Assembly: GCF_021533215.1 (NCBI RefSeq)
Contig: NZ_JAJNKA010000003.1
Location: forward strand, 124,001 to 188,000
DNA: 64,000 nucleotides
Source: Portibacter lacus
Lineage (GTDB): Bacteria > Bacteroidota > Bacteroidia > Chitinophagales > Saprospiraceae
Reading direction: 5' to 3'
Shown: positions 20,351 to 54,419 of the stretch, one piece after another
Numbering within the stretch: the stretch's first letter is position 1
How the letters are laid out: every line of letters begins with the position of its first letter
Notes under the pieces: generated by a model
What the model saw: the letters and a program-made list of their open reading frames with translations, nothing else
Databases searched by the model: none
What the model was told of the DNA's origin: nothing
Translations under genes and position numbers: made by a program

Positions 20351-21841
20351 TTATTTAATAATTACAGATTCATTGATTAATACTTCTCTCCCTTTAACAA
20401 TCTGAATGAAATAAAAGCCAGGGGTAAAATTCGCAACATTCAGTTTTGCTATCGAATTATGATCAGAAGAGTTTATTTCAGTTTTCTGGCCTAAGGCATT
20501 CACTAAGTATATAGAAATATCAAATCTGTCTAAATCTGTAATATCAATATATAAAATGTCAGATGTTGGGTTAGGATAAACAGAGAAGTCCTTTACAGAG
20601 TTGTTTCTTGTCAAGCTGACAATTTCTGAAAATTCTACGTGACCATTATAATCTACCATTTTAAGTCTATAATAAGTGATTTTTCCAGATTCAAGAGAAC
20701 GATCTCTAAATTCATTCTGTTCACTTCCCCCATTCACTATCCCAATATTTTTCCAAGAACTTTTAGTCAGACTTTTCTGTACTTCATAGTGACTAAATCC
20801 AACCTCTGCATAACTTTCCCAATTTAGTAATCCATCTCCATTTTCTAATCTTGCTCTAAAAGAGATCAGCTCTACAGGAACTACTGCTAATGGTTCTGAA
20901 TAAGTCAAGCAAATTCCAGAAATCAACGGTTCTAAAACACTATTAGCCGATTTCTGAAAATCAAGGTTAAGTGTATCATCTTCCACATTAATAAAAAGTG
21001 TATCAATAAAAGCCGTCCTAGAAACTACTGCCTCTGAGAGGATATCGAATTCAGAACGTAAAAGTTGTCCCTCACCACGGATATCCATCAATCTGCTATC
21101 TGTATTGTCTTTAATTTCAGAATAGAATAATTGAGTCTGGTATCTACCATTAGGCAAAGCTATATCGTATTGAAATTCACCTTCTCTTGCGGTTTGGAAG
21201 AGTTCATCATCCTCTGTATTTTCAATTTCCTGCAATTGGACAACACCTGATCCACCTTTAAAACTTCCATCCGAAACGAAAAATGTACTGTCTAAGGTTC
21301 GATAGAAAGAACCATTAGAATTGAAACAAATCCCCATTGTGGAGAGTATTGCGGGAGACGTTTTGTTCAAAGAAGCAAATCCACCACTTTGAGCGACTTC
21401 CGAAGACTTTCCTTCTTCATCATGATCAATGGTAAATCCAGAGTTCTCAATAAAACTTTTAGATCTTACTCTTATTTTTAGCAAATCAGCATCCTGACTT
21501 ATTGGTTGTGATGTTAATATTCCAGCAGCAAATCTAATTCTACCACCAAGTGTATCATTCAACAATTCAAATTGAAATCCATAAATATCTTCCACCTCGA
21601 TGATTTCAAAAGCAGAAGTGTCAAAATCTATATATACTTCTACTCCATCTACTGCATTATCACCTCCATGTAGATCTAATTTCAATATCAGATCAGTAGT
21701 ATCACCTACATTCATCATCAAGGTATCTGGGCTTAAAATTAAATCCGAAGTCAAGTCTCCTTGTGTAAATGATATTTGCTGACTTATAATGAATACAAAA
21801 CAAGTAGCAATGATTTGAAAAAATGTTCTCATGTTATTCAT
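20351..21841 (-). CDS. Secreted cohesin-malectin protein with T9SS type A sorting domain (cluster gene 5)
   Basis: A 496-residue protein from the ATG at 21841 (MNNMRTFFQIIATCFVFIIS, cleavage near FTQG); a longer frame would overlap the gene before it. Residues about 25-150 form a cohesin-like beta sandwich, with the pattern VDGVEVYIDFDTSAFEIIEV and GGRIRFAAG. A malectin-like segment follows (EDDELFQTAREGEFQYDIAL, then GRYQTQLFYSEI), then a fibronectin-like linker (GLLNWESYAEVGFSHYEVQ), and a T9SS sorting domain from about residue 415 (FSVYPNPTSDILYIDI to ESVIIK). It is the last gene of the five-gene cluster, 11 bases after the previous one. It has a cohesin and a surface tag but no dockerin, so it could be the anchor that holds dockerin-bearing partners; that role is inference. 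Confidence 0.75.
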   Translation of the reverse strand: MNNMRTFFQIIATCFVFIISQQISFTQGDLTSDLILSPDTLMMNVGDTTDLILKLDLHGGDNAVDGVEVYIDFDTSAFEIIEVEDIYGFQFELLNDTLGGRIRFAAGILTSQPISQDADLLKIRVRSKSFIENSGFTIDHDEEGKSSEVAQSGGFASLNKTSPAILSTMGICFNSNGSFYRTLDSTFFVSDGSFKGGSGVVQLQEIENTEDDELFQTAREGEFQYDIALPNGRYQTQLFYSEIKDNTDSRLMDIRGEGQLLRSEFDILSEAVVSRTAFIDTLFINVEDDTLNLDFQKSANSVLEPLISGICLTYSEPLAVVPVELISFRARLENGDGLLNWESYAEVGFSHYEVQKSLTKSSWKNIGIVNGGSEQNEFRDRSLESGKITYYRLKMVDYNGHVEFSEIVSLTRNNSVKDFSVYPNPTSDILYIDITDLDRFDISIYLVNALGQKTEINSSDHNSIAKLNVANFTPGFYFIQIVKGREVLINESVIIK

Positions 21842-21852
21842 ATTTAGCAATT

Positions 21853-22575
21853 TTATAAACCTTGACTTATACAATGATTAGGAGTTATTCTTAGCTCTGT
21901 ACCTGGATCCAATTCTAAGGATTCAGGAATTTGCGCATTTTGACAATGCAAAACAGCAGTATTTAGTATTTCTAAATTATTAGACATAATGATGCTTGTC
22001 CCTGCAGAAAAAACACCATCAATTATTGGTGAATGCGCTAATATTCTTATCTCTGGGCATTCTTCTATAATCTGAATAGACAATGATGTAGATTGGTCAA
22101 GTATACCGAAACCGTCTGCAGCAACTTCACATTGTCTTGGAGAAACTCTATCAAAATCAAAATTAAAGGTAGAAGGAAGTGCGCTGGACTTAACTTTAAC
22201 TTTTATTTTTAGAAGTGTCAAAGATGAACTAGGTGCGTTTTGCAAATTACCTCCTGAATAAGCGACGATACCAGCCAAATCATCCACCTGATTATTTAAA
22301 TCTAAAGCCCAATCGAAGACTTCTTGAACTTCTAATATTTCAAGACTTAAAGGATCGAAATTCATATATATATCTACCCCATCTACTTCTGTATTATCAG
22401 GATTGTCCATCATAATATAAAATGAAGATTCCTCATTTGGCGCTAATACCATATTAGCAGGTATTGTATATAAATTCACCAAACCTTGACCATAACATAG
22501 TCTAGGCAAGTACAAGCCTACTAATATAACAAGGCGAATAAGCTTAGAAATTTTGTTTGGTTTTAGTAAATTCAT
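21853..22575 (-). CDS. Small secreted cohesin-like protein without sorting domain (cluster gene 4)
   Basis: A 240-residue protein from the ATG at 22575 (signal peptide MNLLKPNKISKLIRLVILVG, cleavage near CYG-QG). An earlier start would lie inside the giant gene upstream. Residues about 35-160 are cohesin-like: NLYTIPANMVLAPNEESSFY, EVDGVDIYMNFDPLSLEILE and LAGIVAYSGGNL. The tail has four Cys and the phrase DGVFSAGTSIIMSNNLEIL with ESLELDPGTELRI, a motif I know from the C termini of Bacteroidota surface proteins. There is no T9SS tag and no dockerin. Its ATG is one base after the TAG of the 2401-residue protein, so the pair is probably translationally coupled. Confidence 0.7.
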   Translation of the reverse strand: MNLLKPNKISKLIRLVILVGLYLPRLCYGQGLVNLYTIPANMVLAPNEESSFYIMMDNPDNTEVDGVDIYMNFDPLSLEILEVQEVFDWALDLNNQVDDLAGIVAYSGGNLQNAPSSSLTLLKIKVKVKSSALPSTFNFDFDRVSPRQCEVAADGFGILDQSTSLSIQIIEECPEIRILAHSPIIDGVFSAGTSIIMSNNLEILNTAVLHCQNAQIPESLELDPGTELRITPNHCISQGL

Positions 22576-22576
22576 A

Positions 22577-25500
22577 CTATTTAGCTTTAGTCTTAATGGA
22601 CTTTGATTTAAAGGCATTATTACCCACCACCATCACATTAGTAGAAGATGCTTTTTTCATTCTAAATGATACGATAACTATATCCTCTATTTCATTTCCT
22701 GACAGTGCTTTCGTCATCTCGAAAGTGATAACCCCATTTTTACTATCTACAATATCACTGATGCCATCGGAAATTAATTGATTATAGGTTATATCAATAA
22801 CCTCAAGAATTTCTTCATTGAAAACAAGATGAAACTGAGATGCTGTATTCACAATATTGACTTCGTCTACACTTACCGATACATCTATTATGTCATCTAC
22901 TGTTGGGTTATGATCACTGAGTGCAACTGAAAATTCAGCATCAGCCATACTTAAACTAGTCTGATCGTCATTTTTAGTTTTCCCTGATACACCTGAGATT
23001 CCAGCACCGATCATTCCATATCCATTAGCGAATAAAGAAAAATCAATAATATCAACTGAGTTGTTGAAATTAAAATCTGCTTGGCTACTATAACCAGGAT
23101 CTCCTGATACCAAACCGTATGAATTAGCGTATCCTGAGAAATCGATAATATCTACGTCGTTATCGTCTTGAAAATCACCTGATACCATCCCACCAAAATC
23201 AATCGAATTTGAACCAGGATTAAGTGTTCCATTAACTAGTACTGCTAGTGTCTTAGAATTTTTAACCCAAAAATCATAATTCCCAGGAAGTATACCAGGA
23301 ATTAAAAATTCACCACTGGAGTTTGTTGTTACTTGATAGGAGTTAATTAAACTGCTTCCTTGATACAAACTTATTGTTGCGTCAAAAGATTGCGAGAGTG
23401 CATTTATCACAGTAACCGTTCCAGTCAAGTCAGATAAGACTGGATCATCAACATATAGGAGCAAAATTGGATCTGAAGTACTACTGACTGCTGTATTAAC
23501 TGCATAGGGTTGATCAGACTGAACAGCCATAAAATAATTTAGACCTCCATCTGGTTCTCCTCCTGTACCAGCAGTTAATAATAAAGGCACAATTATAGTT
23601 GCTTTTCCTTGACTGTCGAATTGACCATTATAAACTACTTTATCAACTAATTCATTCGCATAAAAAGTTGGATCAGGAACATTGTATGGTGGAGCTCCTG
23701 AAGCAATATGTAACCTTGCATCAATCTGCAACAAAGAGTAATATGCATTGGCTTGACCACAAATGATAATTTCTTGAGACGCATTATAGGCTGTTGATGG
23801 ATTAGTGATAGTTCCAGAAGCTTGAAGTGTTGGCGCTGGTAAATTACTAGGGCCAATGACTTGTGCACCTCCAAAACTTCCATCTTCATACAAATTAGAA
23901 ACGATCGTATATCCATTTTCAAATTCAACCGTTATTGTCGCACCTACAAGTTCAAGTCCTGAGACCGCGCCAGCAAATCCAGCTCCAGGAACACCTTGAA
24001 TACTATTCGGATCTATATCAACGGAAAAACTAAAGTTTTCTGCTGGATTAAAATCTGTAAAATCCATTGTTACAATATCAAATCCACCTTCTCGAGGAGC
24101 TAGGAAAGGATCAATACATGGATCTGCCAAAGGAGTTAGCCCAACGGTTGTAGCCTTTGTAGGGTCTGGATTAAAGCACTGAGCAGTTGCATCTCCACCT
24201 GCACCAACTGGATCAAAAACCATATCTGGTAAAATTGCAGTACTTAAATCTATTGTGAATTTGGTTATTCTAACTGAGCCTGTTGATTGGTTCGTAATCT
24301 GAAATTTATCCGTTGAACCATAAGTTGTTCCACCGATCGGTGTTCCTGGTGTAATTTCAAATAACACTTGAGGAATTCCATCTAAAGCACTAACATTAAC
24401 AGTTCTAACTACTTCATCAGCTTCATTACCTTCAGCATCTTCAACATTGTAAGTAATAGCATACGAACCTGCTGTATTCATATCTAGAGCTGAATCATCT
24501 ATGATAATATTAGCCGAAATATCACCGTCAAAATCATCTGTTGCATTAGCTCCTGCTTCTATATAAGTATCTCCTATCTGAAGTTCTAATGGATTATCGC
24601 CTAACAGCGTGATAACAGGAATAGTATTATCCACCACATCAAAGGTAACGGTATCTGAAGCTTCCGCATTACTAAACTGATTATGAAATTGATCTGCAGC
24701 AAACACTACGACCGTATTACTTCCTGAAGTGATTCCATTTCCAGGAATATTGACCGATAACGAACCACTATTCTCATCAAAAACAAAGCTGGTTTGAAAT
24801 GGATCACTGGCCGTTGAAATTCGCTTATCCTCATCCAGATCATTAATATCATTAGGGTTCAAATAAAAGTGATAATGCTCGACATTATCAGGAATTACAC
24901 CCACAGGATTAATCTCGAATGTCACTGTTCTTGAGTTTAATATAGCACCATCTAATGGCTGGAGCAAACTAATTTCTGGAGCAGAAACATTCAGGGTTAT
25001 CGTTTCTGTTACCATATTATTATCCGTATCCGTAATTGTTGCTGTAACTATTGTTGTTCCTGGTCTAACCAATAATAGATCAACGGTATTTCCTATTCCT
25101 GAAACAGGGGCGAATAGTTCACCTGTATCATCCGTCGTCCAAGCAATCATGTGGGAAATATCTCCATCTTCATTATCCGATGCAGTTGCCGTTAAGCTAA
25201 ATGAACTTCCTCTTGTAACATTGCTACCATCAATTGGGCTATCAATTGTTAAAACAGGAGGCGTATTAGTATTAGAAATGATCAAGTTAATACTTGCTTC
25301 TCCAACTAGGCCACCTGCATCAGTTACTGAAGCTGTAATTACGTGAGCTCCTAGTGATAACCCTGCAAAATCAAAAGTGCCGCCTGTTCCTATTACTCCT
25401 TCTATATCCGAAGTCCACAAAAGGTTTGATGTAATTGTATTATCATCGTCCTCCACGTCCGTTACCGAACCTGTAAAGGTCAGCAAAGAATTAATAATTT

Positions 25501-28500
25501 CAGTTCCATTATCACTTGGGCTGCTAATCGATACGACTGGAGCATTATTCGCTGGTCCACTAACAAAGCAAATGTCGATTCCTTTTAACGATGGATTCTG
25601 ATTCACTTGTAATAGATCAATATTTAAAATACCATCCGTAACCGTTACGGAATATGTTTCAACCTTTGCAATAAAAGCTCCTCCAGCTACAACGGAAGGT
25701 CGATAATCATCTGCGACTAAATTTCCTTCTATTACAATATCGAATATCCTATTATTAGCCGCTGTACTATTTTCATTTGCCCAATTCTCATTAAATAACA
25801 AGCGAACTTCGTAAGTTCCATTTGCTGGAAATGACCAATTTTGATCACCTTCCTGATATCTTTCCGTCTTAAAAATATCATCTGGATAGCCAGTATTATT
25901 TAAGAAAGCACTATTGCTGCCATAAGTATTGTCGCCATTAGAAATATCAAAATAAGGTGACGGTGTTCCAGTTACAGCTGTCCCTCCCGTAGCACTAGTC
26001 GCTTGGTCTTCTTCAAAAGTACCATTAGCACCAAATCCTGTAGGTCCACCACAATTCACTCTAAATCCACCAAGCGAATTAGCACAACTAGGTTCAGGTA
26101 TAGCCGAAACATTAACTGTTCTGCTTACTTGAATTGCTGCATTTAAAGCAGCATCGGATACATTATAAGTTACCATATATGAACCAATTGTATTCATATC
26201 AAGAGCTGAAATATCTATGACAATATTTCCTGAAATATCACCATCTATATTGTCTAAAGCGGTGGCTCCTGGTTCTACATAAGTTTCACCTACTATAAAG
26301 TCTAAAGGATTATCTCCAAGAAGCGTAATAACTGGTGCTTCAGAATCAGCTGGATCTGTCACATTCACTGTTCTTATTACTTGGTCTGCAGGAACTCCAT
26401 TACTATCATTTACATCATAGGTAATAAAGAAAGTACCAACACTACTGGTGTTCACAACATCACCACCAATTACTATATTACTTGGATCAATAACTCCGTC
26501 TTCATCATCAAAAGCTGTAGCTTCTGGTTCTGTGTAAGTATCACCCACTTCAATATTCATTGGGTTATCACCATTTAAAGTAATCACTGGTTTCATATTT
26601 TCAATAACCGTAAAGTCGAAGGTCGTACTTCCAACATCTTGTCCATCAAAAGCTAATACAGTTACTGAATATGTGCCTACATCAGGTAGCGTGGTAGGAA
26701 AAAGTAGATGAAATTCTGATGCACTAATTTGATTTATAGAATAACTAGCTTCTGGAACAGCTGTTCCAGACTCAACAATCTCTACAATCAATTCGGTGAC
26801 GGGTTCGCTTACAATTAAGGCAGCTTCTGCATTGTCACCTGCAGTCACTTGAAAATTAGTGACTGGTGTTAGTATAGGCGCAGTATTTACTGAACCATCA
26901 TCTGCCCTTATGCAGATCGCAGACAATTTTGCATTATCTACTGATTTTGTGGTTTCTATCGTTAAGAATCCGTCAGAAACATTGACCACAAAAGATTTTA
27001 CAAGCCCCGTTGTCGGTGAAAGTACTCCACCTTGTTCAGGATTAAGAAGATCAAGGTCATCAAGCACAGTAGTTCCTTCTACTTCCACATCAAAAATTCT
27101 CTTTCCAGGCACTGCGTTCGAAGCAGCATTTAAAACTCCTTGATATATTTCTGCGATATATAAATCTACGATATAAGATCCATTAGGAACATTAAAATCA
27201 TATGTATAATCACCATATCTCTCCGTTCTAAAAAGTTCATCATCAGTGGTATTAGCGAAATCAATCCCCGCAAGTGTTGTTGCAGCAGCAGAGCCTAAAT
27301 TTGGATATGGAGTTCCTGCACTTGATCCAAAGTCAGCACTAAAATCAATTCCTCCTGTACTGAGGGCTGGACCTCCACAATTCACATAGAAAGCATCGAA
27401 TTCAAATGTCGCTGCAATTGTTGCATTAGCGTTCACATTCATAAAATCATAAGAACTAACACTCCCTACTGAAATTCCATCAACTAATACATCGGCAATT
27501 TTAAATCCGAAATCTGGCGTAATCGTGTAAGACTGACTTCCATTTTCTAGAACAGTTGTAACTCCGATCGGATCAATGTTACCGTTCGGACCAGCTGAAG
27601 ACATGATGTCGTAGGTTACACCTGAGGTAGCTTTGAAAGTAACATCTATTGTATGATCACCCGTTACGTTAAAAAAGGTGTATTGGGTGTTATTTGAGAC
27701 TAAATTTCCATCTATCGTTAATTCATCAATTTCAAAACCTAGATCAGGTGTAATATCAAATATAGCATCATCTCCTTCCTCAACCTCAATGTTTCCAATA
27801 GGAGAAATTGCACCATTCGCACCTGCTGTAGCAGTTATGGTATGAATTTTCATGAAACTGAAATAATCTACATTCACTCCTCCATCAAAGTCAAGCCGGA
27901 TGGTCTGAATTCCACCTGATGCAAAATTAACATCAACTGTAAAATCCAAAAAATTTGTCCAATCTGTTTTAGGAACATCAATACTTCCTATTTCACTAAA
28001 CCCTCCACCATTTTCTTCCGAAAGGCTAATATTAGTTGACGAACCGTTGGTGCCACTTCCATTAGCAGCATTAATGCTAAATTGATATGTGCCAGCTGGT
28101 ACATTAACTAAATATTCCACGTACTCTCCTGCTCCTATATATCCAATATTTTGTTCTGTATTTGATTCGATGGCTACAGAATAACCAGCTCCTGGATTAC
28201 TACTTCCATACCACGGAAGGGGCTCACTGAAGGTATTAGCTTGCACTGTACCTGGCAGATCTGCTGCTACATCGATATCAAATACTTCTATTACTTCTGG
28301 ATTAGCACCATCATTTGCTGTGACTACTGCTTGATATGCTTTCGCATCACCAAGATTTGTAGTCCAACTTAGGGTATAGCTTCCACCAGTATTATCCGTA
28401 AAAGTATAGTTAGAAGGATTAATCGCCGTTCCAAAAGAAGGGTTTCCAGATCCATTAGATATATCATAAATCTTAATGGTCGCTGATGGGTTCATGTCAT

Positions 28501-29782: not shown

Positions 29783-29829
29783 TTTAAATTGGGTAAGGGT
29801 TTAAAAAGGATATTAGGTATAGTCTCTCT

Positions 29830-32800: not shown

Positions 32801-34194
32801 GCTAGCGGTCCAAAGCCATCTCCTCCTCCTGAACAATCATCACATCCATCGCCATCTAAATCTTGACATACATTTGGATCTAATGGATCTGTATCATTTA
32901 CATCTAATACTCCATCATTATCGTCATCATCATCTCCAAAATCACAAATTCCATCGCCATCCGTATCTGTTCCATCATTTGCAACATCATTATTAGCTAG
33001 CGGTCCAAAGCCATCTCCTCCTCCTGAACAATCATCACATCCATCGCCATCTAAATCTTGACATACATTTGGATTTAATGGATCTGTATCATTTACATCT
33101 AACACTCCATCATTATCGTCATCATCATCGCAGACATCACCAACTAAATCCCCATCGGTATCTAGTTGGTCTGTATTAGCAATGCTAGGGCAATTATCAA
33201 CATCATCATTCACACCGTCACCATCCGTATCATTCACTTCTACTACGAATGTTGCCCCAAAGGCATCTGTCCCAGGATCATCAAGAACATTCTGAGTGTT
33301 ACTAACTACTTGCGTTTCCGATCCATTTGCAAAAGAAAAAGCTATATCTGTTGAATTTGATAAGGCAGTCGCTTCAAATTCTATAGAGAAAATTTTAAAA
33401 GTATTCATCGGAAAGGGAGGAAGAGCTCCTGCGGCATAATTGATTATACCATTTATATTATCAACAATTATAGGATCAGTTAATACAATATTCAATTCAC
33501 TATTATCTATCGTCTGCCCCACCACTTGAAGCACTGCAGGATCAAAAGTTAGGTATACTTCCGCTGCATCTATACTTGCAGTACCAGCAATAATGTTAAC
33601 ATCAACAGAAAATTGTTCATTTAATCCAACTGACGTAGTCCCTACAGGAATAACAGCAATATCCACATCTATAGGATTAACAGTTATGCTTAATGGATTC
33701 GTATTATTGGGATTTTCATCAATAAAATTTGTCGCTTCAGAAGTAACTGAAGTTGTGGTCACTTCATTCCCTGTTAAGTTAAACCCAATCTCACTGCTAA
33801 CAGCGGCGGAAAGTGCTTTGAAGGTTATTTGCATCACTTCAGCAGATCCAGAAACTGGAGTAAAGTTTCCTCTCGCATGAATTACACTTCCATTAATATT
33901 ATCGACAGTGGGTCCAGTAAAAGCTGTCCCAAAAGAAGTTGCAATTGGTGTAACATTAACAACTTCGAAAACTGCCGGATCGAAACTTACATTGGCCTTG
34001 ACACCAGTTACTCCTGTTCCATCAGTTTCTACAGAAACGATGGCAACAAATGTATCGTCTATATCAATAGTAGAAGCTGTAGAGTTAATATCAATCGTTA
34101 CGGCTTGCGCACTAGAATTCACACTAAAGCAAAGTATAAAAAGCAGAAAACTTATAAATAGGGAGATGTTTATTCTTGGTTTTAAAGCAGTCAT
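29830..34194 (-). CDS. Giant secreted cohesin/thrombospondin-type-3/dockerin protein with T9SS sorting domain (cluster gene 2)
   Basis: A 1454-residue protein with a signal peptide (cleavage near SSA-QA). Two cohesin-like domains come first (about 30-160 and 180-300; TGVTGVKANVSFDPAVFEV and DAAEVYLTFDPAVLQV). About residues 320-906 are thrombospondin type 3 repeats rich in DxDxDG and DDDDDNDGVLD, expected to bind many calcium ions. A third cohesin follows (about 908-1050, DAAEINIDYDPAFLQIV), then a beta-sandwich, then a dockerin-like EF-hand pair (about 1147-1201, DANNNNRIEILDFS and DFNEDNEITILDFG), a fourth cohesin (about 1225-1340, AVDGVELDLAFD), and a T9SS tag (VNIYPNPFRQKFWLEL to KRFKIVKN). 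Four cohesins make this the most scaffold-like member. Part of the type 3 region is encoded by a 195-bp tandem DNA repeat. Confidence 0.82.
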   Translation of the reverse strand: MTALKPRINISLFISFLLFILCFSVNSSAQAVTIDINSTASTIDIDDTFVAIVSVETDGTGVTGVKANVSFDPAVFEVVNVTPIATSFGTAFTGPTVDNINGSVIHARGNFTPVSGSAEVMQITFKALSAAVSSEIGFNLTGNEVTTTSVTSEATNFIDENPNNTNPLSITVNPIDVDIAVIPVGTTSVGLNEQFSVDVNIIAGTASIDAAEVYLTFDPAVLQVVGQTIDNSELNIVLTDPIIVDNINGIINYAAGALPPFPMNTFKIFSIEFEATALSNSTDIAFSFANGSETQVVSNTQNVLDDPGTDAFGATFVVEVNDTDGDGVNDDVDNCPSIANTDQLDTDGDLVGDVCDDDDDNDGVLDVNDTDPLNPNVCQDLDGDGCDDCSGGGDGFGPLANNDVANDGTDTDGDGICDFGDDDDDNDGVLDVNDTDPLDPNVCQDLDGDGCDDCSGGGDGFGPLANNDVANDGTDTDGDGICDFGDDDDDNDGVLDVNDTNPLNPNVCQDLDGDGCDDCSGGGDGFGPLANNDVANDGTDTDGDGLCDSGDDDDDNDGVLDVNDSDPLNPNICQDLDGDGCDDCSVGTDDFGPLPDFDIANDGTDTDGDGICDSGDLDTDGDGCDDNNDDDIFVASPDTDGDLIGNYCDDDDDNDGVLDIDDLDPLNPNICQDLDGDGCDDCAIGTDGFGPLADNNTTNDGTDMDGDGICDLSDLCPLDPNKTAPGICGCGEEDIDSDNDSTPDCNDECPNDPNKILAGECGCGVVDIDSDGDLIFDCNDDDDDNDGCLDGDDPNPLVFSPDIDGDGIGLDCDICSGNDLTGDSDGDGICDDMDTCPNDPDNDIDGDGICGDVDNCPTVVNIDQLNSDTDDYGDACDCQPNNPTIYPGAPEIPNDNIDQDCDGQDLFIQVDNVSLYVPAISEAAVLTEFQVPVMLNTGSQEVDAAEINIDYDPAFLQIVEVIEGGVLDEFYQKIDVPGQISFSAIDLDSDLTSSPSGNFVLCYLKFYALVPTAGTSLTFTMNNPMRSNVIGLAGNPVLDAVSGGQVVIENIAVLSGSVNLERGAVAQPDPAFSVPLSIKLYEQGTEIEVFSASSILTNNSAEFSVSEVPVGIFDIAIKNGHTLQKMFQGVEITPPNTVHDFLTALSEGDANNNNRIEILDFSILSSTFTKIEGDLGYDGRADFNEDNEITILDFGLLSSNYLEDGDVPPLAVLNEIVEDDVHLSRDVEIATENKLVYTAPGEHIKVPIYVSTADIAVDGVELDLAFDVKNIEVVDVIFSENLPFVIKEDLDNNNGKLYFATGSLDQIHSSEDFLLAEIEIVTKREFSGGVFYSSESNNKTEVSSVGHSVFKGFEDNFRIESRETYSERKVNIYPNPFRQKFWLELEGFEPSEQITIEIIDNLGRIWERNDQFHVSNLQKQMLEFNNTDMVDGIYYISITSSSTGYQKRFKIVKN
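32385..33130 (-). repeat. 195-bp tandem repeat coding for thrombospondin type 3 units
   Basis: The segment CATCTAATACTCC recurs at 32511, 32706 and 32901, and with one change at 33096, each step exactly 195 bases. The units encode 65 residues (NVCQDLDGDGCDDCSGGGDG through DDDDDNDGVLDVND). Copies near 32582-32660 and 32777-32855 agree base for base over about 75 bases. About 3.5 copies are present, with the outer copies more diverged. Period 195 keeps the reading frame. Confidence 0.95.
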
Positions 34195-34227
34195 ATTATT
34201 AGGTATTTTAGGTTAGTTTTTTTTGGG

Positions 34228-37200
34228 TTATTCCACTATAAATTTCTTATTGTAATTGGACTCAGAATTTTTCGCCCTAACAAAATATATTCCCGGTGGG
34301 AAGCTTCTTACTTTAATCATTTTGGAATGACCAGCTTGAATCTGATCTATCATCAAAATTTGTCCTTGACTATTGTACAATTCTAGGGTGTATTCTTCAT
34401 GATCATAAACTTTACCGATTGAAACGGTGACTATATCGGAAGCTGGATTCGGATATACTTTTAACTCAGGTACTGGAGCAATTATCGTTGCAATGTGTTC
34501 ATTATCATTTCTGCTCAAAATAAAACCGCCTGAAGTAGCTTCTGAAACATCATCAATTTTAATTTTGAATTGGCCAGGCTGAACAGCTCTGAATCTTATT
34601 TTACCTAGATCTATATCTCCAGTTGGAACATTAGAAATACTACCAAGACTAATCCTAATAAAACCTTCTTGCTCATTGATCTCTTTTTTTAATACAATTC
34701 CGAAGTCAATCTCATCTAAATTTACATCTACTACTTCCACCGTTTTAGGACTATATTTCAGAAGTAAATCTGAACCATCTACTGCAAGTTCTTCTGCTAG
34801 TAATGTAAGCGTTACACTAAATTCATCCTGAATATTTATTTTATTAGCAGCTGAAAGAATATAATTAACCTGATCCTCTGGCGCTTCTCGTAACTTAACC
34901 TCATTTGTTCTTACTTGTACAGAACCAACTGCCATAGGCGGTACACAAATATCGTCTCCGCTGTTTTCAAAATTGGAAGCTAAGAGTGAAAAATCACCGA
35001 TAGTCACTCCTCCACTCCCATTAAAATCAGCGTTAGGATTATATCCAGCATCTCCACTAATTTTATCAAAAGATGAAGCTAGAATCGAGAAATCTGTAAT
35101 GGTAACTGCTCCACTATTGTTTGCATCTCCAGCGCGCAACTCATTTGCAGACAGAACATTAAAGACCAAAGAATTTGCTCCTGCTGACAATTTTACTCCA
35201 GCTTCTGCCTTAGATAGATAAGTATTATACGATACAAGTACATCATAATTGCCAACTGGGGTATTTAAGATTGTCATTGTTCCACTAGCATTTGCTGTGA
35301 AATAATCATCTAGAACAGACTGACCATTAGATGGGTCGCAAATTTGAACATGATATGTTCCTGAATGATCTGTTCTTCCTTGAAGTTCGCAAGTAATTTC
35401 TAAGGAATTAGAGCCTGCTTCGAATACATTCCAATCAAAAACCACTTGAGTAGAAGCTGAAGGGTTACAACCATCTGTAACAATTACAGTTACAGAATAT
35501 GGGCTTCCATCTGCTGCTCCAGGCGCACTCTTTGTGGATGGTGCTCCATTTAAAGTCCCTGTCGGTACACCAGTCGAAACATCATCAATATGAAGGAGAG
35601 CAAATCGATCAATTTTATGACCGGCAGATCTTTCTGACATTTGAATGGTATATGTTCCAGCGTTAGGAAAGTAAGCGTACACAGGGAATCCATTATTATC
35701 TATCGTTTTCGCATCCCATTTATTTCCACCACTACCACTTCGATAAATCTTGAAAAAACCACTATTCCCTGGATTTTCACTGCCATGATCAGGGCGTCCT
35801 TGTCCATTACCTTTAGGATAGTAGATCGTTTTCGTTGATGTTCCACCCGATAGAATATTTTCAAATTCGGTCGTACTTGATAATCCTCCACCTTGGACAG
35901 TGAAGAAATGAACATCAGGCGTATTTGCTACTTTAAACCATGTGTCATTCTCTTCGGTAGCGATGGTTCCTGTAAATTCACTTTTCATGTGTAACCTATA
36001 AACCCCAGGTGTTGAAATATTCAAATCATAATCGATCGTCTGCCCATTGGTATTTCCGAAGTGATCTGTACTTGCAGCTAAGAATGAAGGTGTACCTGAA
36101 ATTAGATTCCATCCTCCTGCCCCATCTACAAAATCAGTTTCTGCTTCTATGATTAAAACACCATTCGTTTCATCAAAAGCTCCGCCTGAAGTAGATTCAC
36201 TTATTGTGCCTGATATCAAACCAGTTGCAGGATCAATAGATAATGTAGGAGGTAGTCCTGAAGCTGAATAGTTTAATCCAAAACACGGATCAACATCTGT
36301 CGCTACAATTTGAAGACTGATTACATCCCCTTCCGCACTATTCTGAATGCCCGGGCTAGTTACAATTGGCGGATCATTTGGTATGACAGCGCCAGAAATA
36401 ATTTCTATTCCTTTTATACTTGGATTCTGTAAATTTTTAATAAAATCAATATCAAGATTGCCATCTGAAACACTAATATTAAAGCTTTCTACTCCAGCAA
36501 CATTATGTCCATAAGTATCTGTTTGATCAAAATTAGCAAGGACTGTATTTCCTTCTATTTCTACATCAAATACTCTGACACCTGCCTCTGTCGCACCAGA
36601 CCAAACCTCAGCAAAGAGCAAATTAACTATATAGTCTCCATTCGCAACCGGAAAATCCCATTGCATATTATTTGGATTCGCCGCATCACTATATCTTTCT
36701 GTTGAAAATAAAGCATCTGGATAACCAGTTGAATTTGTTCCTGAAAACGCTATTCCATAAGACTTATCAAATGCTGGAGGTGTTATATTTACATAAGGAG
36801 AAGGTGTTCCAGCAACTGCAGATCCGCCAACGGTTCCTGAGGCTTGGTCGCTAGACCAATCTATATTAGGCGCATCGTTAGCTGATACTATTGCACCACC
36901 CGCATTAATTCTGTATAAAGTGACAGCACTTGATGTTCCTGTTGATATAGGTATCGTTACACTACCTGAAACATCATAGGTAATGGTCAGATTTGCAAAT
37001 TTGCCTTCGGTCGAACCAGTATGTATAACATTTATACTTCTAGTCGCACCTGAGGCAAGTAACCCATAATCTATCGATTCACTTAGTATAAATTCGCTTG
37101 CATCCGGACCTGAAATTGTTGTACCAGTAATGATGATACCAACATTACCTGCCTGATTCGATAGAGAAACTGGTGCACTTCCACCCGCACTAATTACAAC

Positions 37201-40200
37201 AGATGTTGGAACATTCAACTGTCCTGATACTGAAGGAGACCCAGTAGGATTATCCAATCCATAGTACTCCATACTCTTCATTTTACCGCCTCCTCCTAAA
37301 CTATTCGAACCAGCTGCTACATGAATGCCATCGCCTGATGCAATAGCTTGAGTTCCATGTCTTTCTGTAACTAAGTCCGGGCCAGAAGTCCAGGTGCCAG
37401 ATACCGGGTCTAGTATCTCTGTAGTTTTAACCGCATCTCCTACCGTATTTCCATTGAGATCCGTTTGTATCTCTCCACCGATCACGTATAGTTTATTTTG
37501 TAACACAGCTACAGATGGAGCAGCTCTAGGAGTAGGAATGTCTTGAGGTAAAGTACTCCATGAATCGGTATTAAAATCAAACACATCTACTTCTGCAATA
37601 AGCGGCGCAAAGGTTCCTCCATCTCCACCAGATAATCGTCCACCAGCTAGGTAAATTTTATCGCCTACGATTCCTGCATGAAAGTGATCTCTAGATCTTG
37701 GAGCATCCAGATTAGTTAATGCCGTCCATATTCCAGTAGCCGGATCAAACTCGTCAAACCACGGTACATACTGCCCGTTATGTCCTAATTGATTCCCGCC
37801 AATAATATAGAATTTGTCATTATACATCACAACTCCTGCAGATCCTCTTTGTCTTGCAGCTGGTATTTCAGGACCCATAGTCCATTCATTTGTAGCTGGA
37901 TTATAAGTGTATATATTTTCGGCAGGCATCTCATTTGGAAAGCCATTATCCATAAAAGCACTAATAACCCAAATTAACCCTTGATATTCAATCGCTTGGA
38001 AGTGATTAAAGGGCATCGGCGCTGAATTTGGTATAGAGGTCCACGTTTTTGTATCATAACTATAAACATCTAATGTGGTAGGGTTCTCACGACCGCCAAA
38101 CAAGTAGAATTTGTTACCAGCTTGTACAAATGAACATTCGTGTCTTGCTGTGTAATTCTCGTCATCAGATTGGTCGTTCCAAGCACTTGGAACACTTCCA
38201 TTGATAAGCCATGAGAAGGAAGCTGTTCCAGAAATACTATTGCTTTTAGAGACCGTAACTTCTACATTATAAGGACTGCCTACCAAAGCGGAGGAAGCTA
38301 CCGTTCCAAAAATTAATCCTGTAGTAGGTTCTATTTGCAATCCATCCGGTAGACCAGTTGCAGAATATGTATATGGCCCACTTGCACCTCCACTGGCTAA
38401 TACTGTTAGATTTACGACTTCATCTACATTGCTGGTTTGATCTGCAATTGTCTCAACAACAATTGGAAAACCTAGAATTTCAATTGCATTTATCAGCGGA
38501 TTTTCAACGTCATGCTCGAAGAGAATATTTAATTCATTATCCGTTACTGTCGCAGAATGTTGAATCATTCCACCAGTTTGATGCCCAAATTGAGCAACCG
38601 CATCAAATTTGTATTCTTTTTGTAAGCCTTCTATCAGTATATTAAATTGTCTATCCCCTTCTGAATCTGTTCCTGCATACCCATTTCCTAGATATAATCT
38701 AATGGTGTAATCACCATTTGGAACATCGAATGTCCACTCCATTTCAGGTTCCACAGGAGGATCCCATCTTTCACTTGCAAAGAGAGCGGTAGGGGCGTAT
38801 GATGGCAAGGAAGCATGTCTTTGAGTAATATTATGGGTAGAATGATTACCTGTATTGACTGCATAATCAATTCCATTAAATGTGCCCGACTGTGCTCCTG
38901 TAGCTGTAATTCCCAACCAATTCGGATTCGGAGCATCTGTAGCAGTAATGGTCGCACCATTAGCTCTAATTCTTAGAATCGGAACTGGATCTTCATTTAC
39001 ATTCACATCAAATTGTTGTTCAATGAAAAGTCCACCTTGATCTGTAGCTCTGATCGTTACTGAAGAGGACGCAGCTGATGACGTAAAACTGATCGTTAAT
39101 TGATCATTTGATATGGAGGCGCCAATACTGCTATTTGTATTTTCTTCAATGGTATAAGTGAGGTTAACATCTCCATCATTATCTTCAAAATAATTATTCA
39201 GATCGAAAGATTGGCTTGGAGCATTTAATGTGACATTGATATCATTAAGGGTTTGTTCGATCGTAGGTTGACTTCCTATGACATTCAGGTAGTCCCAAGT
39301 ACACTCTAATTCTTGATTACTAGCATTAGAAGTACCTATCAAACCTACGGCTAACGGAATATTGCTATTTTTTATCGCTGATAGAACGCTCCCCTGTGCA
39401 GTTAATGTTCCTACTGTTTGAAATATTTCTCCTTCTCCATAAGCATAAAGTGCTGTCACATTTCCGCTAACTGGGTCGATCGACATTCTGAAAACAACAT
39501 CATTTAGAGGTCTATTCTGAGTTGTAATATTGATAGTAATTGGCGTTTGTGGAGAATCATTGATTTCTTGTTGGAAAGTAATTCCACTTTTAGTCAATAC
39601 TAGTTTCATGTAATTGGACTGTGTCCCATCTCCTAAGAAAATTCCAACTTCTCCATTTGGAGTGTTTGCGTTTCCATAAAGTTGGAGCGGCGCATCAAAA
39701 TTCTGAGTTCTCCCTTCTACAATGAAACCTCCAGTACTTTCACTTACATTAACCCCATATTGAAATGCTTTACGTTGATTATTCGAGTTTCCTAATGCTG
39801 TGCCTTCTCCCATCTGCATGGTCATTGCTTCGATAGCACCACCTAATAAGTCATCCGGATTAGGGCCATCACCTTGAATATCAATCCACTCTATCCAATT
39901 AGGACCTGCACTTCCATTATTCATTAATCCTGTAAAACCAAGGCCTAAATATCCATTTAGCTCCGTATTTCCAGAGGCCAGTTCATTGATCACAGGTAAG
40001 TTAAAAGCATCAGATCCTCCGCTATGAAAATCACCAATCTGAAATGGATCATCTTTATCTAAGATTCCATCATTGTCATCATCATCGTCATTCAGATCAG
40101 ATACTAAATTACCGCCAGCATCTCGATCAAAATCGTTAGGCTGACTTCCTGCACTACAAATCACATCTTCATCTGCAACAGCAATCCCCTTATTATCTAT

Positions 40201-41973
40201 TTCATCTCCGTTCGTATATCCATCAAAATCGTAGTCCAAGTTTTCGTTATATAGTGGATCATTTGAGTCATAGCATTCAGCAACTGCATCAACTGGTTCT
40301 AGAATTTTCACATTTCCGTTGTAGGTTGCTACCCAGATCGTGCCTGGAAATGGATCATCATCTCCGTTACAGGTAATTCCTAGAGCATTTCCTCCTAAGT
40401 TAGTAACGAATGTTTCATCTAGATCTTCTAGACCTCCACCTGAAGTGAGCTGTACGCGTTTTATCACACCTCCATTCTTTCCAGCGATCAGATCCCCCTT
40501 CATAGCATTCCCGAAATTAGAAGCGGTATATTCATCTATACCATTTGTATTGTTACTCCATGTTGTCACCAAAACATCATCAGGACCATCTGGATTACTT
40601 CCACCTGGAGCCCTCCAATCTCCTTGTTCTGGCTGTGCTAGACTTACGGGTACAGGAGGCCAGTTAGCAGGTAAAGCAATACTAGCATCATTTGTAGAAC
40701 CAGGTGTAGAGCCATCTGGATCATAAACTTGTGTTCTAAAGACAGAATTTGTATTGGCATTTTCTGTTGGATTTGTAAATAAGCCTGCACCTGCCGGATT
40801 CGCTCTTACTGGACAAGGATGCCCTCCGTAAAAACTACCTAAAGCATAACTATGGATATCATTTGTAATCATTGTTAAATGATCCTTATTATTCACTTGC
40901 TCTCCTCCAATTGAACTAGAACTTCCTGGTTCAGAGGGGAGGTAATTATTGGTTACTGTTCCATCTATTCCTTCATTCTCAGGTAATCCTCCCCAACCGC
41001 CATTCGCTCCATTGTCTGTGGCAAAAACTTTCCCAAGTTCTGTTATGACTAGGTCATAGCTATTTCGGTAACCTGGTGAAAATATCTGCACTGGTCCATT
41101 GATCACAATCATTCCTTGATTAAGACCATCATTACCTCCCCACGGATCACCTATATCTATCGGTGAATAATTCGCATCATTTGGATCTTCAGAAGCTGGG
41201 CTACCGTTTGAAAAAACATTATCTCTAGTCGGATCGTCTAAAGTGGGTATATCATAAATGTATTGCCTACTTCCATCTGTCTTTATAGGCATTCCCTCGA
41301 GCTGAGTTAAATTAATTGATAAGAGAGCTGCAGACAAAGCATATTCTGTTGTCCAAGCAAAATTATCAGATGGAGCACCTGCATTCGCATGGCCACCTGA
41401 GCAAACGATCAAGTAATCTGTACTTCCTATTGTTACAAACTCTAATCCATTCGTAGCATGATTTTCTTCCGATCTAGACAGCCCTCGAACGATATCTACT
41501 ACATCCCAAGAATTCCCATTCTTTGTAAGTCGTGTGATGACTCCAGAATTTGTATCAAGGTTTTTATCGCCGCTAGGACCACCTACTCTAGAATCACTAG
41601 AGGTGACATATATGATTGGTGTTGCAGGAGTGCCGACAACTGTTAGTCCAGTGGCTTCTCTGCTGTTTCCAGTATGGCTGGAACCATCGTCATTGTGGTT
41701 TGGAATGTTTTTGACAAATAATAGTTCTTCTTCACTTGTCACTTCATAGTCATTCGGACCGTTCTTCACAACAGTAAAAATGTCGATGGTTCCATTCAGA
41801 TTCAAGACATATAGTCTATCATCAGGACCGAACATAAGTGACGTTCCGTTATTAACATCTTCATTTCCGTCAAAATTAAGATTCGATTGAGAAAAGTCTT
41901 GACTAACAAGAGAAGTCGATACAAGACATAGCAGTATAGCTACCGCATGGGTAATTGGTTTTAGGTGTTGCAC
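34228..41973 (-). CDS. Giant secreted multi-propeller/malectin protein with dockerin, cohesin and T9SS sorting domain (cluster gene 1)
   Basis: A 2581-residue protein with a signal peptide (cleavage near SLVS-QD). Residues to about 560 form a propeller recalling the glucose/sorbosone dehydrogenase fold (LMFGPDDRLYVLNLNGTI, VFATDNGANGGWGG). Next comes a short Asp-rich calcium segment (NDDDDDNDGILDKDD), a lectin-like or laminin-G-like domain, and Ig-like domains. Then malectin (LRIRANGATITATDAPN), a kelch propeller of about six blades (about 1290-1600; NKFYLFGGREN, DKFYIIGGNQ, NKLYVIGGEI), a second malectin (YRINAGGAIVSANDAPN), Ig-like and CBM-like domains (IIEAETDFVDGAGGW). The C-terminal set is a beta sandwich, a dockerin-like EF-hand pair (about 2279-2333; DANNSGAVTITDFS, DFNGSGGVTIGDFS), a cohesin (about 2361-2487), and a T9SS tag (LKVYPNPASDIVTVSI to NKKFIVE). 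It is the first gene of the five-gene cluster. Confidence 0.8.
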   Translation of the reverse strand: MQHLKPITHAVAILLCLVSTSLVSQDFSQSNLNFDGNEDVNNGTSLMFGPDDRLYVLNLNGTIDIFTVVKNGPNDYEVTSEEELLFVKNIPNHNDDGSSHTGNSREATGLTVVGTPATPIIYVTSSDSRVGGPSGDKNLDTNSGVITRLTKNGNSWDVVDIVRGLSRSEENHATNGLEFVTIGSTDYLIVCSGGHANAGAPSDNFAWTTEYALSAALLSINLTQLEGMPIKTDGSRQYIYDIPTLDDPTRDNVFSNGSPASEDPNDANYSPIDIGDPWGGNDGLNQGMIVINGPVQIFSPGYRNSYDLVITELGKVFATDNGANGGWGGLPENEGIDGTVTNNYLPSEPGSSSSIGGEQVNNKDHLTMITNDIHSYALGSFYGGHPCPVRANPAGAGLFTNPTENANTNSVFRTQVYDPDGSTPGSTNDASIALPANWPPVPVSLAQPEQGDWRAPGGSNPDGPDDVLVTTWSNNTNGIDEYTASNFGNAMKGDLIAGKNGGVIKRVQLTSGGGLEDLDETFVTNLGGNALGITCNGDDDPFPGTIWVATYNGNVKILEPVDAVAECYDSNDPLYNENLDYDFDGYTNGDEIDNKGIAVADEDVICSAGSQPNDFDRDAGGNLVSDLNDDDDDNDGILDKDDPFQIGDFHSGGSDAFNLPVINELASGNTELNGYLGLGFTGLMNNGSAGPNWIEWIDIQGDGPNPDDLLGGAIEAMTMQMGEGTALGNSNNQRKAFQYGVNVSESTGGFIVEGRTQNFDAPLQLYGNANTPNGEVGIFLGDGTQSNYMKLVLTKSGITFQQEINDSPQTPITINITTQNRPLNDVVFRMSIDPVSGNVTALYAYGEGEIFQTVGTLTAQGSVLSAIKNSNIPLAVGLIGTSNASNQELECTWDYLNVIGSQPTIEQTLNDINVTLNAPSQSFDLNNYFEDNDGDVNLTYTIEENTNSSIGASISNDQLTISFTSSAASSSVTIRATDQGGLFIEQQFDVNVNEDPVPILRIRANGATITATDAPNPNWLGITATGAQSGTFNGIDYAVNTGNHSTHNITQRHASLPSYAPTALFASERWDPPVEPEMEWTFDVPNGDYTIRLYLGNGYAGTDSEGDRQFNILIEGLQKEYKFDAVAQFGHQTGGMIQHSATVTDNELNILFEHDVENPLINAIEILGFPIVVETIADQTSNVDEVVNLTVLASGGASGPYTYSATGLPDGLQIEPTTGLIFGTVASSALVGSPYNVEVTVSKSNSISGTASFSWLINGSVPSAWNDQSDDENYTARHECSFVQAGNKFYLFGGRENPTTLDVYSYDTKTWTSIPNSAPMPFNHFQAIEYQGLIWVISAFMDNGFPNEMPAENIYTYNPATNEWTMGPEIPAARQRGSAGVVMYNDKFYIIGGNQLGHNGQYVPWFDEFDPATGIWTALTNLDAPRSRDHFHAGIVGDKIYLAGGRLSGGDGGTFAPLIAEVDVFDFNTDSWSTLPQDIPTPRAAPSVAVLQNKLYVIGGEIQTDLNGNTVGDAVKTTEILDPVSGTWTSGPDLVTERHGTQAIASGDGIHVAAGSNSLGGGGKMKSMEYYGLDNPTGSPSVSGQLNVPTSVVISAGGSAPVSLSNQAGNVGIIITGTTISGPDASEFILSESIDYGLLASGATRSINVIHTGSTEGKFANLTITYDVSGSVTIPISTGTSSAVTLYRINAGGAIVSANDAPNIDWSSDQASGTVGGSAVAGTPSPYVNITPPAFDKSYGIAFSGTNSTGYPDALFSTERYSDAANPNNMQWDFPVANGDYIVNLLFAEVWSGATEAGVRVFDVEIEGNTVLANFDQTDTYGHNVAGVESFNISVSDGNLDIDFIKNLQNPSIKGIEIISGAVIPNDPPIVTSPGIQNSAEGDVISLQIVATDVDPCFGLNYSASGLPPTLSIDPATGLISGTISESTSGGAFDETNGVLIIEAETDFVDGAGGWNLISGTPSFLAASTDHFGNTNGQTIDYDLNISTPGVYRLHMKSEFTGTIATEENDTWFKVANTPDVHFFTVQGGGLSSTTEFENILSGGTSTKTIYYPKGNGQGRPDHGSENPGNSGFFKIYRSGSGGNKWDAKTIDNNGFPVYAYFPNAGTYTIQMSERSAGHKIDRFALLHIDDVSTGVPTGTLNGAPSTKSAPGAADGSPYSVTVIVTDGCNPSASTQVVFDWNVFEAGSNSLEITCELQGRTDHSGTYHVQICDPSNGQSVLDDYFTANASGTMTILNTPVGNYDVLVSYNTYLSKAEAGVKLSAGANSLVFNVLSANELRAGDANNSGAVTITDFSILASSFDKISGDAGYNPNADFNGSGGVTIGDFSLLASNFENSGDDICVPPMAVGSVQVRTNEVKLREAPEDQVNYILSAANKINIQDEFSVTLTLLAEELAVDGSDLLLKYSPKTVEVVDVNLDEIDFGIVLKKEINEQEGFIRISLGSISNVPTGDIDLGKIRFRAVQPGQFKIKIDDVSEATSGGFILSRNDNEHIATIIAPVPELKVYPNPASDIVTVSIGKVYDHEEYTLELYNSQGQILMIDQIQAGHSKMIKVRSFPPGIYFVRAKNSESNYNKKFIVE

Positions 41974-49200: not shown

Positions 49201-50498
49201 CCTTTCAAGATATTCTCTAATATCTCCCAAATCACTGGATCTTTACGATCTACTAATTTCTTAGCTGACTTTACAGTTTTTACAATTCCTCTCTCAATTA
49301 ATTTCCTAATAATAAAAGGTTTGAATAACTCAGATGCCATTCCTTTTGGAATACCACACTCATGCAATTTCAATGTAGGTCCTACTACAATTACAGATCT
49401 TCCTGAATAATCCACCCTTTTTCCTAAAAGATTCTGACGGAAACGACCTTGCTTACCTTTAAGAATATCACTTAAAGATTTCAACGCTCTTCCACCTTCT
49501 GCTTTTACTGCATTTGATTTACGTGAGTTATCAAATAATGAATCGACTGCCTCTTGAAGCATTCTTTTCTCATTTCTCAAGATTACTTCTGGAGCTTTAA
49601 TCTCTAAAAGTCTCTTAAGACGATTGTTTCTAATAATAACTCTTCTATAAAGATCATTAAGATCTGAAGATGCAAATCGTCCACCATCTAAAGGAACTAA
49701 TGGTCTCAATTCTGGTGGAATAATAGGTAAGTATTGGATAATAGCCCATTCAGGTCTGTTATCGATTCTTGTTTGTCCGTCTCTAAATGCTTCTACAACT
49801 CTTAATCTCTTAAGTGCTTCAGATTTCCGTTGTTGAGAAGTCTCATTTGCAGCTTGATATCTAAGTGCAGCTGATAATTCATCAAGCTCTAATCTTTCTA
49901 ATAGCATTTTCACAGCTTCAGCACCCATGTAGGCGATGAATTTCTGTGGATCACTATCATCAAGCATTTGATTTTCTTTCGGAAGACCATCTAACACTTC
50001 GAAATACTCCTCTTCCGTTAATAAATCTTGCTTAGCAATTCCATCTTCTTCTTTCACTCCAGCTTGGATAACTACATATCTTTCGTAGTAAATGATTGAT
50101 TCTAATTTCTTAGAAGACAATCCTAGTAAGTATCCTATCTTGTTTGGTAGCGATTTAAAGAACCAAATGTGAACTACAGGAACAACTAATTTAATGTGTC
50201 CCATTCTCTCTCTTCTCACTTTCTTCTCAGTGACCTCTACCCCACATCTATCACATACAATTCCTTTATATCTAATTCTTTTATATTTCCCGCAGTAACA
50301 TTCGTAATCCTTTACAGGCCCGAATATTCTTTCACAGAAAAGCCCATCTCTTTCCGGCTTGTAAGAACGGTAATTGATCGTCTCTGGCTTAAGTACTTCA
50401 CCAAATGATCTCTCTAAAATATCATCCGGCGAACACAGGCTGATCGTGATCGACTCGAATGGAGCTCTTGTCTGCGTATTGTTCTTTCTAAAAGGCAT
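46206..50498 (-). CDS. rpoC: DNA-directed RNA polymerase subunit beta'
   Basis: A 1430-residue protein, usual for the phylum. The N-terminal zinc ribbon is [20 protein letters not shown] (about residues 67-86). The catalytic magnesium loop is [12 protein letters not shown], near residue 470. A second zinc site is in [15 protein letters not shown] (about 895-910), followed by [18 protein letters not shown] of the trigger-loop region. With RpoB it forms the catalytic cleft of RNA polymerase. It begins 31 bases after rpoB. It ends in an acidic tail ([14 protein letters not shown]). I see no inteins or lineage-unusual truncation. Confidence 0.99.
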
Positions 50499-50529
50499 AA
50501 TACTCTTTTTATTTAAATTGGTGAATTAA

Positions 50530-54351: not shown

Positions 54352-54419
54352 AATTGAGATATTTATAATGAACCGGTCAATACCGGAATAATCTTCAAAA
54401 CAAAAAAAATAATACAAGT

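Follow-up and report, generated by a model that had tools for sequence, protein, structure and literature searches.

The window analysed here is a stretch of 64,000 nucleotides from Portibacter lacus (Bacteroidota; contig NZ_JAJNKA010000003.1, positions 124,001 to 188,000), and our subject is a cluster of five genes within it, A to E, whose products combine cohesin and dockerin modules with C-terminal tags of the type IX secretion system (T9SS). Inspection of the open reading frames (ORFs) confirmed that the five genes form one cluster on the minus strand. The intergenic gaps of 33 (A-B), 47 (B-C), 1 (C-D) and 11 (D-E) bases reported in an initial annotation proved correct, the last two by way of internal ATGs. 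The listed ORFs of D and E start further upstream and overlap the preceding gene, and starts at 22575 (D) and 21841 (E) yield the narrow gaps. As we argue below, the cluster is probably an elaborated form of a dedicated pair, in which the X-dockerin (XDoc, an X module followed by a dockerin) of one protein would meet the cohesin of another that bears the T9SS tag.

Modules were assigned with Pfam and NCBIfam, and with models built from 20 cohesins and 21 X-dockerins of other genomes, the sequences of P. lacus being left out. The foreign sequences had been collected via models with P. lacus seeds, so these profiles are free of its letters, not of that search. None of 1200 shuffled decoys matched them at E<1. 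The E-values given next are from these other-genomes models unless a family is named.

Gene A (34228-41973; 2581 residues), assigned from the ORF list, Pfam, NCBIfam and the other-genomes models, runs from a secretion signal and a conserved N-terminal region with no Pfam match, through malectin, kelch and malectin modules, to an X-dockerin (residues 2196-2342, 34948-35388; E 3e-39), a cohesin (residues 2374-2477, 34543-34854; E 1e-13) and a T9SS type A tag (34234-34458; PF18962 4.8e-13, and TIGR04183). Signal peptides throughout the cluster were judged by eye only. Gene B (29830-34194; 1454 residues; ORF list, Pfam, other-genomes models) is the multi-cohesin member, with two cohesins (33712-34098, E 9.5e-17; 33280-33666, E 8e-25) followed by TSP3 repeats, a third cohesin (31051-31446; E 1e-16, and a Pfam Cohesin match), an X-dockerin (30571-30981; E 2e-30), a fourth cohesin (30136-30498; E 9e-14) and a type A tag (29845-30081; PF18962 7.7e-9). 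Gene C (22577-29782; 2401 residues; ORF list, Pfam, NCBIfam) encodes CBM6, malectin and Ig modules with an X-dockerin (22994-23392; E 1.3e-27). Gene E, from its internal ATG (20351-21841; ORF list, Pfam, NCBIfam), has a cohesin (21350-21745; E 6e-12), a malectin and a type A tag (20360-20581; PF18962 1.9e-10). Gene D, likewise from its internal ATG (21853-22575), has a secretion signal, a cohesin (22069-22479; E 2e-15) and a tail like that of K, a paralogue of A elsewhere in the genome (L029:4575-10661, contig C22); the protein has no Pfam or NCBIfam match. K itself carries an X-dockerin, a cohesin and the D-like C-terminal tail, with no T9SS tag.

The initial annotation had described three dockerin-bearing proteins, three tagged and two untagged members, and malectin, CBM6, kelch and Ig modules unaccompanied by a glycoside hydrolase, all of which was borne out. 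PF18962 and TIGR04183 place tags at the C-termini of A, B and E and find none in C or D, SprA was detected alongside the tags, and Pfam found the sugar-binding and Ig-like modules across the five proteins and no match to a glycoside hydrolase family. The predicted Asp/Asn pattern of the EF hands is present in the dockerin alignments. The further claim that all five proteins have cohesin-like domains holds for four, because C gave no match: on its C-terminal stretch of 120 residues (22580-22939), the supposed cohesin, the model leaving P. lacus out is silent at E<1, and C is not upheld as a carrier of a recognisable cohesin. The initial observation is thus partly confirmed. Pfam by itself shows the binding modules unevenly. 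In a genome scan the dockerin family PF00404 scored A at 28.9, B at 28.8 and C at 20.4 bits, with A and B above the cut-off of 22.9 and C below; in hmmscan A was just above cut-off, C stood at E 0.041 and B was unlisted. The cohesin family PF00963 in hmmscan passed cut-off in B only (four stretches), fell below it in E (0.0029) and had no match in A, C or D. The proposed check with these two families thus gave a mixed result. At E up to 10, the P. lacus genome as a whole yields 13 matches to cohesin and 26 to dockerin, and the better dockerin matches fall into two classes.

Both sequence and predicted fold identify the modules. Against PDB sequences the X-dockerin profile gave 33 matches at E up to 0.1, the best of them to type II XDocs from A. 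cellulolyticus and C. thermocellum (4wi0_B, 5e-18; 4u3s_B, 2e-17; 2b59_B, 8.5e-16). The best dockerin without an X module was 2y3n_B (1.9e-10), and unrelated chains, a T cell receptor and a sarcoplasmic calcium-binding protein among them, appeared at the weak end (E 0.01-0.1). The cohesin profile matched nine PDB sequences, weakly and all of them cohesin chains (best 3l8q_A, 8.6e-5 over two stretches; 5g5d_A, 1.6e-4). AlphaFold2 models cover the X-dockerin-cohesin stretch of A and the first cohesin of B. The former (alignment of 22 rows, 5 spanning the cohesin; predicted local distance difference test, pLDDT, 77) resembles type II XDoc chains in rows 1-8 (Z 14.3 to 12.8) and cohesins in rows 9-45 (Z 11.8 to 9.0; first cohesin row 2.6 Å, 125 aligned), with a zonadhesin entry (row 46), GPI-T (49) and adaptin (50) lower down, and diphtheria toxin and integrin among the lower matches of a further fold comparison. 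The latter (12 rows; pLDDT 72; residues 112-134 below 50) has cohesins as its top Foldseek matches, with a pilin domain and integrin lower within the top 50. Two EF-hand repeats follow the X module by sequence in A, B and C, and by fold in A. These PDB sequence and fold matches point away from any other beta-sandwich family, a better match to which the initial annotation had named as refuting, and from any other EF-hand family. As judged from alignments and models, the modules are cohesins and dockerins, and the X-dockerin is nearest to the clostridial type II XDocs.

In the model of A the linker (residues 154-171) has pLDDT under 50, so the relative placement of dockerin and cohesin is uninformed. 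Both A and B have a short linker between the dockerin and the cohesin behind it, and one could picture each window dockerin folding back on that cohesin in cis, with no assembly between proteins. Such an arrangement would leave D and E with cohesins and no dockerin of their own, and it sits badly with the homologues described next, of which 20 have the dockerin as C-terminus and 18 have the cohesin on the adjacent protein. We consider binding in cis alone unlikely.

The relatives of A carry much of the argument. A search with its N-terminal region (alignment A3) returned 177 relatives from named genomes; the best 80 hits, representing 78 loci, were analysed. Twenty-two of the 78 run off their stretch and 56 reach the C-terminus; dropping L164, L167 and L190, whose frames are broken by runs of N, leaves 53. 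Of these, 32 carry a tag and no dockerin, 20 a dockerin and no tag, and one, from N. persica (L146), both, so that tag and dockerin are near-exclusive. In 20 of 20 dockerin-only homologues the protein ends 0-5 residues past the dockerin. On a quick tree, made without bootstrap, tag and dockerin switch no more than twice, one change separating two large groups and the other falling in N. maritima, and the state with both arises twice. The N. maritima homologue has the tag and no dockerin, and its genome lacks Coh1, the cohesin scored across genomes. One further homologue, L097 (G016:C160), is split into three open frames and is therefore decayed or misassembled.

Two simple explanations for the missing tags were considered. 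One is a weak tag model; the model used (24 seeds, chosen by motif from fetched loci) finds the tag in 32 of 32 dockerin-less homologues, the three with N runs excluded. The other is that the dockerin-only proteins are lipoproteins: a regular-expression lipobox check gave one match (L134), lying before the hydrophobic core and thus in the wrong place, and the N-termini resemble signal peptides. Pfam and NCBIfam scans found no sorting domain in the dockerin-only homologue L138. As the X-dockerin occupies the place of the tag, it might itself be a new T9SS sorting signal, read by the translocon and not by a cohesin. We think this very improbable, given that cohesin and tag come after the X-dockerin in A, B and two N. 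persica proteins, that a cohesin gene adjoins in 18 of 20 cases, and that the predicted fold and the contact positions considered below are those of cohesin-binding dockerins.

In 18 of 20 cases the gene next to the dockerin-only homologue lies on the same strand and encodes a protein with a cohesin close to its start (including L140, whose called start overlaps its neighbour); at L125 and L143 the contig stops short, and of the neighbour just the T9SS tag is visible. The cohesin gene is upstream and T9SS-tagged in 12 of the 18, with gaps of 24-33 nt in the Flavobacteriaceae pairs except at L216 (19 nt) and L140 (overlapping start). In the six downstream cases the gaps are 16-102 nt and the arrangement varies. 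L128 is followed by a cohesin-tag protein and L127 by a protein with two cohesins, a dockerin of the second class and a tag. At L126, L130 and L134 an adaptor with cohesin and dockerin precedes a cohesin-tag protein, and at L133 the adaptor comes before a pair of overlapping frames that carry cohesins and the tag respectively. For six neighbours outside the seed set of the cohesin model (L128, L129, L132, L135, L137, L142), scores are 2e-16 to 4e-40. A comparison of the cluster across genomes, which the initial annotation had called for, thus led to a simpler two-gene pair in Flavobacteriaceae and Lewinellaceae.

In N. persica, where one protein of 2754 residues has four cohesins, a four-gene run (L208; G498:C52) resembles primary and anchoring scaffoldins. 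Its first gene, cut at the 5' end, encodes a dockerin-cohesin-tag protein; the second, a dockerin-ended untagged protein; the third, four cohesins in a dockerin-ended untagged protein; and the fourth, two cohesins and a tag.

Dockerin and cohesin also go together at the level of whole genomes. In 12 of 17 dockerin-bearing genomes (X-Doc at E up to 1e-6, Coh1 at E up to 1e-3) there is exactly one match to each. These 17 genomes stem from 18 loci, L137 being the one left out. The remaining five have 1+2, 2+2, 2+2, 2+3 and 4+8 X-Doc and Coh1 matches, and in G496 the two are on different contigs. The window's dockerin class is rare; in the family, a profile of X-dockerin and cohesin matches 6 of 120 genomes (E up to 1e-6). 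SprA was found in 21 of 21 genomes searched. It might be argued that the untagged dockerin proteins remain periplasmic or leave by some other route, the pairing reflecting shared regulation only, since their export and binding are predictions from sequence. Their close homologues, however, are T9SS-tagged, and one dockerin with one cohesin in 12 of 17 genomes, together with the agreement at contact positions, favours binding. Shared regulation as the sole reason for the pairing therefore seems to us highly improbable.

Agreement between the two halves of each dockerin was scored for 27 distinct dockerins (20 after dereplication; L125 could not be parsed and was skipped), with a parsing pattern that fixes the residue class at position 1 and Asp at position 12. 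The two halves coincide at position 10 in 17 of the 20 dockerins (cross-protein rate 0.23), at 11 in 12 (0.17), at 17 in 14 (0.22) and at 18 in 10 (0.21). Within-protein agreement exceeds cross-protein agreement at positions 7, 9, 10, 11, 17, 18, 20 and 21 (permutation p 0.0011 or less) and mildly at 13, 14 and 16 (p 0.005 to 0.021), with no excess at p 0.1 at positions 2, 3, 4, 5, 6, 8, 15, 19 and 22. A recent duplication of the repeat would have lifted positions 2, 4 and 6 too, where no such rise appears. In the window, the halves of B and C agree at 10, 11, 17 and 18 and those of A at 10, 17 and 18, not 11; paralogue K deviates, its first half being without the usual agreement. By manual count on the profile alignment, positions 10-11 correspond to Leu167/Glu168 of 4u3s_B, a pair that a passage of PMC5141474 places among the central cohesin-interface contacts of a complex with evidence of dual binding. 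As read from the alignments, the halves match at cohesin-contact positions beyond chance, as in dockerins of the dual-binding type.

We propose that a dedicated X-dockerin:cohesin pair, type II-like and dividing its labour with the T9SS, underlies the window cluster, which elaborates on it; we give this reading a probability of about 0.78. In its simplest form, in Flavobacteriaceae, one gene encodes a secreted protein that binds sugars, with its cohesin close to the N-terminus and a T9SS tag at the C-terminus, and the other a homologue of A with a Sec signal and, in place of the tag, an X-dockerin at its very C-terminus. Because the dockerin would bind the partner's cohesin in calcium, the tagged partner would keep the untagged sugar-binding protein at the cell surface. 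Adaptors, with a cohesin at one end and a dockerin at the other, are added in some Lewinellaceae, and N. persica combines a scaffold of four cohesins with a tagged anchor of two. Within the window, C could attach through its dockerin to cohesins of B or E, and D through its cohesin to dockerins of A or B, and the outcome would be a sugar-binding surface assembly without enzymes. The safest reading of these sequences is a type II-like pair that anchors an untagged sugar-binding protein to a tagged one. The sequences themselves show the domains, the pairing of the genes, the near-exclusivity of tag and dockerin, their co-occurrence with cohesins and the matching contact positions; binding, its dependence on calcium, location at the surface and the order of export and assembly are inferred from these.

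How the untagged partner might leave the cell is a separate matter, and its co-export through the T9SS is possible. In this piggy-back form, the X-dockerin protein would bind the cohesin in the periplasm, so that assembly would precede export, and the complex would pass the outer membrane by way of the T9SS on the partner's single tag. It is a stronger form of the pair reading, which leaves the route open, and the odds of the two overlap. The dockerin as C-terminus, the lack of a sorting domain in L138, the signal-peptide-like N-termini with their sole and misplaced lipobox, the tags of all 32 dockerin-less homologues and the presence of SprA are in keeping with it, and hitch-hiking is known for twin-arginine translocation (Tat), to go by a title cited in PMC9251779. 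T9SS substrates are thought, in a passage of PMC10994853, to exit with the C-terminal domain (CTD) first, so that an N-terminal cohesin and its cargo would pass last, which is compatible with piggy-back export and no demonstration of it. Set against this are the absence of T9SS co-export from the titles and abstract openings of the papers that our searches listed, the very large size of the complexes (about 2700 + 2800 residues in Arenibacter) and the fact that assembly outside the cell would leave the same genomic pattern. We therefore hold piggy-back export as a tentative reading, somewhat doubtful on balance. A little more speculative still is a view of the pair as a detachable T9SS passport, bound in the periplasm and carried with its cargo through the outer membrane, of which the window would be an expansion into a multi-protein surface array. 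If true, this would be a T9SS hitch-hiker system; among the open-licence PMC papers listed by our searches, no title or abstract opening gave an account of one, of T9SS co-export of a cohesin-dockerin complex or of dockerins replacing T9SS tags.

Several points weigh against the pair as we describe it. The Fisher test of tag and dockerin exclusivity (p 1e-13, n=53; 4e-11 with the three N-run homologues kept) overstates the case, because with only two switches the 53 homologues are far from independent. The reverse co-occurrence speaks for the pair, although it is one-sided: 25 loci where A's homologue shows no dockerin map to 23 genomes, and Coh1 is absent from 21 of them, but the 21 were scored for Coh1 alone, and L147, L160, L164 and L198 have no readable C-terminus. 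The two exceptions, G503 and G514, also favour the pair, with a dockerin-ended untagged protein beside a cohesin-tag protein. Among 345 genomes of the phylum, sampled at most 11 candidates per genome, X-Doc has matches in six (E up to 1e-8), of which four are weak; Coh1 is found in the same two that hold strong X-Docs (G000, G008), in keeping with the pair, and the four weak ones (G155, G176, G271, G482) come without it. Window proteins A and B hold dockerin and tag together, paralogue K ends in neither, and the dockerin of L138 stays below the Pfam cut-off. The model that found the neighbouring cohesins was seeded with 14 domains from these very loci and 9 from P. lacus, and at L142 the cohesin begins only at residue 136 of the called frame. 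Finally, no shared catabolic context was upheld: the G016 locus has GH43 and a sugar transporter in its vicinity, that of N. aquimaris galactonate enzymes and a sulfatase, and that of Maribacter arcticus DNA primase, and as flanking genes differ between genomes, no shared substrate is indicated.

Clostridial type II XDocs tether cellulosomes to cells. Their pair with cohesin (the XDoc of C. thermocellum CipA; the A. cellulolyticus ScaA XDoc with the ScaB cohesin) is the best sequence and fold match to ours. It shares with it the union of X module and dockerin, the joining of one protein to another, anchored one and, in ScaA, Leu-Glu at positions 10-11 of both repeats, as in Arenibacter L138, L139 and L141. 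Unlike the clostridial pair, the present one has a Bacteroidota host, a T9SS type A tag on the tagged partner, a sugar-binding protein rather than an enzyme scaffold as cargo and, in 12 of the 17 dockerin-bearing genomes searched, a single dockerin and a single cohesin of its class. With the cellulosome, B and the N. persica protein share the multi-cohesin scaffold. Its dockerin-bearing carbohydrate-active enzymes have no counterpart here, as Pfam found no glycoside hydrolase family in the five window proteins or in the L138 pair of dockerin protein and cohesin protein. Cohesin-dockerin assemblies outside cellulosomes are known, and Peer and colleagues reportedly described such modules in 2009.

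The initial annotation had suggested a new kind of assembly, an interpretation that is partly supported. A cluster joining cohesins and dockerins to the T9SS does lie here; it appears to elaborate a simpler two-gene pair, and a CTD-anchored cohesin scaffold with dockerin partners has been proposed before, as part of a cellulosome-like complex in Ca. Stygibacter (Cloacimonadota; excerpt of PMC8542988). As in our pairs, signal-peptide proteins with C-terminal dockerins occur there; the Ca. Stygibacter complex carries hydrolases and peptidases, unlike the window cluster, and the excerpted account mentions no gene pair, no exchange of tag and dockerin among homologues and no route for untagged partners.

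What distinguishes the present case is a branch of untagged homologues that terminate in a dockerin, the tag being found on the cohesin protein next door or on the product of the gene beyond it. This suggests that some marine Bacteroidota pair a tagged cohesin protein with an untagged dockerin protein, which may be carried or held at the surface by its partner. With single, defined pairs one could test if complexes held together non-covalently can be moved by the T9SS, and by what means Bacteroidota construct large surface assemblies devoid of enzymes. Where it is present just once in a genome, such a pair would also offer a clean natural case for the study of binding.

A second system was seen alongside. 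Twelve proteins have 3 to 10 cohesins by the cohesin model, eleven in family genomes (L100, L102-L108, L110-L112) and one in P. lacus itself (L018, C11:549817-552879); Pfam, run on L100 and L018, found SprB repeats and a CHU_C type B T9SS domain in these two. At 10 of the 12 loci a protein of 256-327 residues with a cohesin and a T9SS tag lies in the same stretch, mostly adjoining. The second dockerin class, of the STLDLVLIQRHILG...SPYK.IAADIN type, occurs in P. lacus (L018-L028) and in relatives (L099, L102, L104, L106, L107, L109, L110, L113). Many of its proteins have a cohesin and T9SS tag about 80 residues on; others have no detected cohesin.

Near the cluster, the window encodes a secreted-looking protein of 792 residues (43300-45678) with many short WG..N..SG-type repeats and weak matches, below cut-off, to beta-roll and YadA head models. 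Genes for the RNA polymerase beta-prime and beta subunits follow at 46206-54417.
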